A stretch of DNA of 26,667 nucleotides, taken from Spirochaetia bacterium. Lineage in GTDB: Bacteria; Spirochaetota; Spirochaetia; Treponematales; Breznakiellaceae. Of this stretch, positions 2,987-25,713 are shown one piece after another. Below the pieces are notes generated by a model. That model worked only from the letters and a program-made list of their open reading frames with translations. It was not told the DNA's origin and ran no database searches. Position 1 is the stretch's first letter. Every line of letters starts with the position of its first letter. Where the stretch lies: contig BNUW01000016.1 of NCBI GenBank assembly GCA_025997655.1, positions 1 through 26,667 on the forward strand, given 5' to 3'. The translations under genes were made by a program, and so were the position numbers.

Positions 2987-3047
2987 ACATAACGAAAGCT
3001 ATACGACCAAGCCGCTACTGCGGCGTAGCGTATAGCGTGTGTTAAAC
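2987..3047. other. Integron attC-like recombination site
   Basis: The 61-bp site reads ACATAAC (2987-2993), spacer, GCTATACG (2998-3005), ACCAA, GCCGC (3011-3015), loop TACT, GCGGC (3020-3024), GTAG, CGTATAGC (3029-3036), spacer GTGT, then GTTAAAC (3041-3047). The last box matches the GTTRRRY attC core exactly. The first matches the complementary RYYYAAC at all but one position. The 8-bp inner arms pair perfectly around an unpaired centre and a terminal hairpin, as in folded attC sites. No integrase gene is in the window, and no extrahelical base is evident in the inner arms, so the call stays tentative. Confidence 0.5.
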
Positions 3048-24321: not shown

Positions 24322-25713
24322 ATGCGATATTACAGTACCAGAAGCCGGTCAAGCCCGGTTAGTTTTGCTGCCGCCGCCCTCGGAGGCCTTGCCCCGGACG
24401 GCGGTCTCTTCATCCCCGAAGAGATCCCCTCCTATCCCGGCAGAGTAAAAAATTCCCTGGGAACCATGAGCTTTTTTGACATCGCCTTTGAAACTATCCG
24501 CCCCTATGTCCATCCGGAACTGCCCGACGCCGTTCTGGAGGATCTTGTCCACTCGGCCTATCCCTTCACCGCGCCCCTGGTGAGTGTGGGGGATCGCCTG
24601 GTGCTGGAACTTTTCCACGGCCCCACCGCCGCTTTCAAGGACTTCGGCGCCCGTTTCATGGCCCGCGCCTTTTCTTACCTCCGCCGCGGCGAGGACAAGC
24701 CCCTGCATATTCTGGTAGCCACCTCCGGCGACACCGGCGGCGCGGTGGCCGACGGCTTCTACGGCGTGGAGGGCATTTCCGTCACCGTGCTCTACCCAAA
24801 AGGCCGGGTGACCCCCCTCCAGGAAAAACAGATCGCCGGCCTTGGCGGCAACATCGGGAGCCTAGCTGTGGAGGGCAGCTTTGATGACTGTCAGGCCCTG
24901 GTAAAAGCCGCCTTCGCCGACGAGGGTTTGCGGAAACGCGCAGCCCTCTCCTCAGCCAATTCCATCAACGTGGCCCGCCTCATCCCCCAGGCCATCTACT
25001 ACAGCGTTGCTGCGGGCAAAGCCTTTGCCGGCAAAACCGATAGCGATGGTGAGGCCACCCCCCGCGGTGGCCCGGCCTCTCCACGGGTCCCCGGTCAATC
25101 AGACCAAAGGTCTGCCATCGCCATTCCCAATGCGTCCCATGGTGTCAAAGCCGGAAGCCCCATTACCTTCTGTGTGCCCAGCGGCAACTTCGGCAACCTT
25201 ACTGCGGGGCTCTACGCACTAAAGATGGGGGCGCCTATCTGCGGCTTCATCGCCGCCACCAACATAAACAAGGCGGTGCCGGATTACCTTGCAAGCGGCG
25301 AATACCATGCCCGCGTATCCCAGGCAACCATTTCCAACGCCATGGACGTAGGCGCCCCCAGCAACTTTGAACGCATGGCCGCCCACTGGACCTTAGAAGA
25401 ACTGCGCGGAATGATCCGCGGCGTCCATGTGTCCGATGAGGATACCCGGAAAACCATCGCCGCCGTTCACGACAAATACGCCTACTTCCTCGACCCCCAC
25501 GGCGCTGTAGGCTGGCGGGCAGTAGATATACTGTCCGCGGTTGCAGGCCCTTTGGCGGTACTTGCCACCGCCCACCCGGCAAAGTTCGCGGAAACCGTGG
25601 AACCCTTGGCCGGTTCTGTCCCGGCCCCGGCGTCTATAAAAAACGCCCTAAGCCGTACCGCCCAAGCCCGGACCATCCCGGCGGAACTTTCCGCCCTGGC
25701 CGATACCCTATAA
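24322..25713 (+). CDS. thrC: Threonine synthase with an in-frame insertion
   Basis: This is a 463-aa PLP enzyme converting O-phosphohomoserine to threonine. MRYYSTRS begins the family N-terminal domain. [20 protein letters not shown] holds the PLP lysine, [16 protein letters not shown] the phosphate site, [20 protein letters not shown] the core, and [20 protein letters not shown] the glycine-rich loop. Between [12 protein letters not shown] and SPITFCVPS there are about 35 extra residues (from about [12 protein letters not shown] to [10 protein letters not shown]) not expected in the family. Their DNA is rich in inverted repeats (25043-25121). The frame is kept and the catalytic motifs are intact, so the enzyme may work. 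It is followed by ychJ after 19 bp. Confidence 0.93.
25043..25121. repeat. Palindromic insertion element inside thrC
   Basis: Outer arms GCGATGG (25043-25049) and CCATCGC (25115-25121) enclose GGCCACC/GGTGGCC (25053-25059, 25066-25072), with GAGGCC/GGCCTC as an alternative pairing, and CAGACC-AAA-GGTCTG (25100-25114). The element codes for about 26 residues in frame with thrC. Confidence 0.6.

Follow-up and report, generated by a model that had tools for sequence, protein, structure and literature searches.

Nucleotides 25099-25115 of the DNA analysed here (the window, 26,667 nucleotides long) very probably represent a micro-palindromic DNA element that occurs in dispersed copies and acts like a miniature Rickettsia palindromic element (RPE). 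The unit is repeated, is found as an insertion, changes the length of genes by multiples of three (mostly +15 nt), nests and stacks, decays, and has one co-varying base pair. Its consensus, GC(A/G)GACC-NNN-GGTC(T/C)GA, in which unpaired G and A flank a 6-bp stem with a free loop of 3 nt, is denoted by the pattern GCRGACCNNNGGTCYGA. The window is contig 16 of its own genome (G000), a draft of 2.74 Mb in 402 contigs that is about 70% complete. It was compared with the sister genome G001, with the congeners G002 and G004 (all four being drafts of 220-450 contigs), and with the complete genome of a further congener, G003. The following features of the window are concerned:

24322-25713, plus strand: threonine synthase (ThrC) open reading frame (ORF) that hosts the element, 463 aa long and passing the cut-off of NCBIfam thrC (TIGR00260)

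25003-25176, plus strand: hypervariable ThrC loop of 58 codons (57 without the last V), in frame and ending at VPSGNFG, delimited by homologue comparison

25043-25121, no strand assigned: outer 7-bp arms 25043-25049/25115-25121 plus inner stem 25053-25059/25066-25072, judged to be chance in a GC-rich loop

25047-25088, plus strand: probable 21-bp tandem duplication (25047-25067, 25068-25088) adding GGPASPR, from comparison of the halves

25099-25115, minus strand: micro-palindrome copy GCAGACCNNNGGTCTGA (minus-strand loop TTT), one of the 24 exact 17-mers of this genome

The ThrC ORF at 24322-25713 is complete, and E. coli ThrC (1vb3) was both the top structural match of its model (TM 0.84/0.91) and the top sequence match. 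A sequence-only reading of the window had proposed an extra in-frame segment in ThrC between two conserved motifs, and a long in-frame loop is indeed present at 25003-25176, upstream of VPSGNFG; between the two matched stretches, E. coli ThrC has about 10 residues, compared with about 49 here. Comparison of homologues revealed a conserved loop start (AGK..DPDGEATPR) and a hypervariable remainder, the DGEATPR codons being common to most relatives with a long loop. The loop comprises 57 aa here and 39-74 aa in the best 120 of 4,988 homologues, and 16-25 aa outside the lineage (L040-L081 minus L055 and L070; motifs located). Ten loci (L024, L027, L030-L036, and L038) have a short loop of 13-32 aa, while in several family genomes ThrC matched in two pieces, the same as in outgroups. 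Among the sampled relatives, a long loop is common without being universal, and it predates the micro-palindrome inside it. In the AlphaFold2 model of ThrC (mean pLDDT 91.5), residues 252-271 form the sole segment below 50, and the micro-palindrome, coding for residues 260-265, lies within this only segment predicted to be disordered. The nearest relatives by ThrC were 'Spirochaetia bacterium' (98%) and Treponema MAGs, the latter presumably of termite origin, going by isolate naming, while the homologues P0004 and P0005 (86 and 85% identical) carry the label Treponema primitia. A second ThrC-like stretch was noticed in the own genome (G000:C42:13331-13891), with 45% identity over residues 280-460.

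The sequence-only reading had taken 126 bp of this loop for a single palindromic insert. The inverted repeats named in it exist (25043-25049/25115-25121, which are the 7-bp arms, 25053-25059/25066-25072, and 25100-25105/25109-25114), and the segment as a whole did not hold up as one element. It contains two inverted repeats of at least 7 bp, and as many were found in 10% of 110 GC-matched windows and in 6.8% of all 632 windows of the same contig, which is within chance. The whole segment, folded as DNA, had a z-score of -0.76, and a selected 95-nt part of it, folded as RNA, one of -2.5; a known RNA family was rejected, as there were no Rfam matches at gathering score within the window. Searching the own genome with the segment at E 0.001 returned the segment alone. 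The left arms fall in the conserved start of the loop, which rules out a single 126-bp insertion, and the outer arms and the stem 25053-25072, whose left arms sit in the DGEATPR codons, were rejected as parts of an element. Together with the wide occurrence of the loop, its conserved start, and its very variable end, the chance level of the inverted repeats and the weak DNA fold speak for an ordinary hypervariable Pro/Gly/Ser-rich ThrC loop whose DNA in this species happens to be palindromic. For 25099-25115, however, this reading is refuted by copy number, since the inner 17-mer is present in 24 exact copies in the genome, while about 0.02 are expected (arithmetic). It stands for the remainder of the segment, and as an explanation of the whole we consider it improbable. 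Comparison with relatives, by which an ordinary loop was to be recognised, gave a divided answer: the loop itself is widespread, which speaks against a palindromic insert of that size, whereas the dispersed palindrome is absent from the loops of G002, G003, and G004, which speaks for an inserted element. The analogy with RPE fared similarly, failing for the 126-bp segment and surviving for its 15-17 nt core.

Two extra pieces distinguish the ThrC loop of the window and of its sister G001 from those of G002, G003, and G004. The first one, GGPASPR, probably arose by a 21-bp tandem duplication, the halves of which match at 15/21 positions in G001 and 13/21 here. The second surrounds the hairpin CAGACCAAAGGTCTG. 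The plus strand of this copy, TCA GAC CAA AGG TCT GC(C), codes for S-D-Q-R-S-A, while the copy of G001 has decayed and reads CCAACCAAAGGTCTG, with two changes in one arm (CCAACC). The closest homologue devoid of the hairpin, P0002 (89% identical), reads VPGQSAAKADAARGVK and has a loop of 45 aa (57 - 7 - 5); leaving aside the 7-residue duplication, it is 5 residues shorter, and in this protein-level comparison the hairpin accounts for five codons of the loop. In the DNA alignment, G002 and G004 each leave a gap of 13 nt at the hairpin and G003 one of 19 nt, giving no sharp insertion length because the loop is too variable there. The empty ThrC site is unclean in DNA, a difference of exactly 15 nt being indicated only versus P0002, by its protein sequence.

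The same loop gathers palindromic repeats in several species. L004:2746-2866 is a different in-frame palindrome in the ThrC loop, with 103 matches (both strands) in its own genome, and L032:2699-2763 is yet another one, located in an otherwise short loop, with 57 own-genome matches; each occurs at about 40 places, as counted by hand. Hairpin DNA was also seen in the ThrC loops of L005, L007, L009/L099, and L103. The loops of P0040, P0070, P0083, P0104, and P0115 hold peptides, e.g. NFTTEDTEG and FFIPHSSFPTPHSS, which we take to resemble translated repeats.

The genome-wide look for further copies that the sequence-only reading had called for did reveal intragenic and intergenic ones, but of the third stem, 25100-25114, which matched exactly at several places when the own genome was searched permissively. 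The 15-nt hairpin CAGACCNNNGGTCTG was found at 30 sites in G000, 31 in G001, 8 in G002, 3 in G004, and none in G003, with a chance expectation of about 0.16 sites per 2.74 Mb (arithmetic), and its backwards control was found at none in all five genomes. The 17-mer including the flanks, GCAGACCNNNGGTCTGA, had 24 sites in G000, 29 in G001, 7 in G002, 2 in G004, and 12 in G045. It was present in 16 of 57 genomes of the family and in none of 39 others of the order, the control giving 0 in all 96. G045 belongs to another genus of the family, and 11 of its 12 copies have an AAA loop; most of the family's genomes contain two copies or fewer. This uneven distribution suggests bursts or transfer.

One stem pair of the micro-palindrome co-varies. 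All two-mismatch matches of G000 and G002 were tallied by hand, without selection for pairing, and the third stem position of otherwise exact 17-mers was A:T in 31, G:C in 20, A-C in 2, and G-T in 0 cases. A second tally over 92 fetched copies (A:T 59, G:C 32, A-C 1) leans to pairing because the loci were fetched by a match to the A:T or G:C pattern. The co-varying form, GCGGACCNNNGGTCCGA, had 10, 16, 10, 0, and 4 sites in G000-G004, respectively, and was present in 16 of 34 family genomes searched; outside the family it occurred once each in 3 of 23 genomes, no more commonly than its backwards control (3 outside the family, 1 within it). A two-mismatch search of G003 gave 13 matches versus 6 in the control, and a few weak matches are therefore background. 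The loop is free, with AAA in 21, GAA in 12, and TTT in 9 of the 92 copies, plus 23 other triplets. Its length was 3 nt in 75 cases, 2 nt in 1, and 4 nt in 2, in contexts preselected for 3-nt loops, as the pattern used for the genome-wide collection of sites had the loop fixed at 3 nt. Outside the fixed G and A, the 92 copies show weak preferences only (C about 0.5 at -1 and -2). As possible ends of a larger parent element, 118 GCRGACC and 92 GGTCYGA arms were counted within 97 kb of context, the hairpins' own arms included, versus 24 of each expected by chance. Of the six frames of GCAGACCNNNGGTCTGA, read on paper, one has a fixed stop (TGA).

To assess insertion, 24 sites within long ORFs or close to them were taken, and their 80-nt flanks were sought in the five genomes. 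Twenty site groups were aligned and their lengths rechecked pairwise, while the flanks of L145, L159, L194, and L204 gave no usable relative. A hairpin-less relative was found in 13 of the 20 aligned groups, and all length differences were multiples of three. The relative was a net 15 nt shorter in nine groups (L138, L139, L148, L156, L158, L166, L168, L193, and L203), one empty version of L139 being a paralogue in the same genome and a third relative of L203 differing by 12 nt. The other differences were 30 nt (L184 and L185), 33 nt (L155), and 27 nt (L137); in the last two groups, the identity of one flank dropped to as little as 54%. Groups L151, L147, and L141 had occupied relatives only. 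For L180, L177, and L187, every relative was decayed or had lost part of the copy (for L180, a further G003 stretch was unalignable), and L192 was ambiguous. Decay of copies proceeds by substitution (L249, L263, L247, and L264) or internal deletion (L238, without 9 of 15 nt). Clearest is a graded series of 0, 15, and 30 nt in a LeuD-like gene, the G004 copy of which matches Pfam Aconitase_C: VDIEKAVLTF in G004, VDIGTDRRSEASLTF in G002, and VDIGTDRRSADQRSEGTLTF in G001.

The host ORFs with an empty relative belong to unrelated families, namely HlyIII, IS66 transposase, M3 peptidase, aspartyl protease, TrkA, SBP_bac_6, QueA, pseudouridine synthase, TPR, and Aconitase_C. Further sites lie in NeuB, HEPN, Bmp, NUDIX, LptC, SLBB, and DDE_Tnp_1 ORFs, as well as in CfpA and IS1182 transposase ORFs (matches below cut-off), for which no clean empty relative was aligned. 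Chance may account for the site L174 (PurN, G004). On contig C40 of the own genome, the M3-peptidase stretch with its hairpin is found twice, in opposite orientation (G000:C40:3200 and G000:C40:14680), reflecting either recent duplication or doubling in the assembly. The alignments of the sites showed no target-site duplication, and about 2 nt of the target were apparently replaced at some of them. Such a '17 in, 2 out' event seems to be indicated at a few sites, and L148 fits a plain 15-nt insertion. From this distribution of occupied and empty sites, we infer that the micro-palindrome has moved.

Intergenic copies are consistent with the same picture. A larger intergenic repeat (...CATACGCTATACGCtgCGCCGCAGTAGCGGCTTGGC...) exists in empty and occupied versions. 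In the occupied one, GCAGACCNNNGGTCTGA replaces two bases and adds a net 15 nt, and all copies of this version may go back to a single event. Positions 3006-3024 of the window (minus strand) and about 70 nt around them form one such larger repeat, CATACGCTATACGC..GCCGCAGTAGCGGCTTGGC..CGTATAGC, with 13 matches at no more than one mismatch in the own genome, and other copies of it house the micro-palindrome. Nested copies, one sitting in the loop of another, were found at L183, L186, L198, L200, and L202, and tandem ones at L155 and L185; several nested copies with common flanks may represent one event.

The hairpin shape, the short unpaired flanks, and the copies within hairpin loops are also what a REP-type repeat mobilised by an IS200/IS605-like Y1 (RAYT) transposase would show. 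However, the GTAG or CGTC tag is absent, and the presence of Y1_Tnp is out of step with copy number: no Y1_Tnp was detected in G000 (about 70% complete), G002, or G045, which all have copies and include drafts, while there was one partial match in G001, and three matches each in G004 and in the copy-free G003. Mobilisation by a RAYT is unsupported by this pattern, and we regard it as unlikely. A site for protein binding or processing (a regulator, a nucleoid protein, or a HIP1-like word), accrued by point mutation or gene conversion without insertion, could likewise be a short, perfect, dispersed palindrome with a conserved stem and a free loop. Here, though, it comes as added length, with a shorter relative in 13 of the 20 aligned groups, its copies nest, and unrelated ORF families harbour many of them, which makes this explanation very unlikely. 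An artefact of assembly or amplification, which the draft state of G000, G001, G002, and G004 and the lack of copies in the complete G003 might suggest, is scarcely credible, given that sites recur across assemblies with differing flanks (L137/L176, L141/L175, L147/L178, and L151/L169) and that decayed copies and the graded 0/15/30 series exist.

If the micro-palindrome is a dispersed RPE-like element, its copying would place a 17-nt unit and swap out about 2 nt of the target, for a net gain of 15 nt. Many intragenic insertions would be nearly neutral, because five codons are added and five of six frames have no fixed stop. Selection would purge copies in folded cores and spare those in flexible loops such as that of ThrC. 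The mover would most likely be an enzyme or a repair process working on single-stranded hairpins, since the stem is kept, the loop is free, and some copies lie inside the loops of others. A farther-reaching reading, to which we give slightly less than even credence, is that (i) the 17-nt hairpin is a dispersal unit recognised as such and the smallest one known to spread in genes and intergenic DNA, (ii) the process prefers hairpin loops, (iii) the stem is kept by compensatory change, and (iv) five-codon modules are fed into housekeeping enzymes in this way. In a bolder variant, the hairpin may even be skipped or specially handled in translation, as mitochondrial bypassing elements are.

Protein-coding palindromes are best known from Rickettsia and Wolbachia and, to our knowledge, how they move is still open. 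The hairpin described here has spread in some termite-gut spirochaete genomes, both between and inside genes, and its empty, single, and stacked states in close genomes make the movement of a 15-17 nt unit testable. As 15-17 nt leave hardly any space for anything else, the hairpin itself is the likely substrate. The element also shows a route by which short in-frame modules get into conserved enzymes.

Among known systems, the micro-palindrome resembles RPE in being a palindrome repeated many times per genome (here 30 sites, control 0), in having copies both intergenic and in frame within genes, as insertions relative to orthologues (here 13/20 groups), and in losing its pairing with time, as PMC2229807 and PMC6649704 describe for RPE copies. 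It differs in length, since RPE are 105-146 bp long (PMC2229807), i.e. 35-48 codons, and the micro-palindrome has 15-17 nt and adds five codons. We did not file it as an RPE because of this difference in size and because the likeness is one of behaviour, not of compared sequence. In PMC3733652, RPE-4 and RPE-6 are shorter and classed as CGTC REPs. The Wolbachia elements (WPE) are grouped with RPE as the nearest kind by name alone.

The GTAG/CGTC REPs are likewise short, dispersed, sometimes intragenic stem-loops with unpaired ends, and CGTC repeats are reported from Spirochaetes (PMC3733652). According to the same paper, the stem measures 5-13 bp in the GTAG class and 8-9 bp in the CGTC class, the overall length being 20-40 bp, whereas the micro-palindrome lacks a GTAG/CGTC end and is 17 nt long in total, with 6 bp of stem and 3 nt of loop. 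Bacterial palindromic MITEs are, according to PMC2229807, also non-autonomous, dispersed, and sometimes fused in frame to genes, yet several of them have target duplications, none of which were seen in the alignments of micro-palindrome sites, and they measure 70-300 bp with terminal inverted repeats of 15-30 bp (PMC3733652). The coding palindromes of Nematomorpha mitochondria are hairpins in protein-coding DNA as well, but in PMC6649704 they are long perfect repeats (mean 43 bp) in conserved gene regions, called distinct from other coding structures, and differ in this from a dispersed 17-nt family. No report of palindromic elements inside Treponema genes was found in the open-access literature searched; the micro-palindrome is RPE-like in behaviour and, by our impression from that literature, new in size and sequence.
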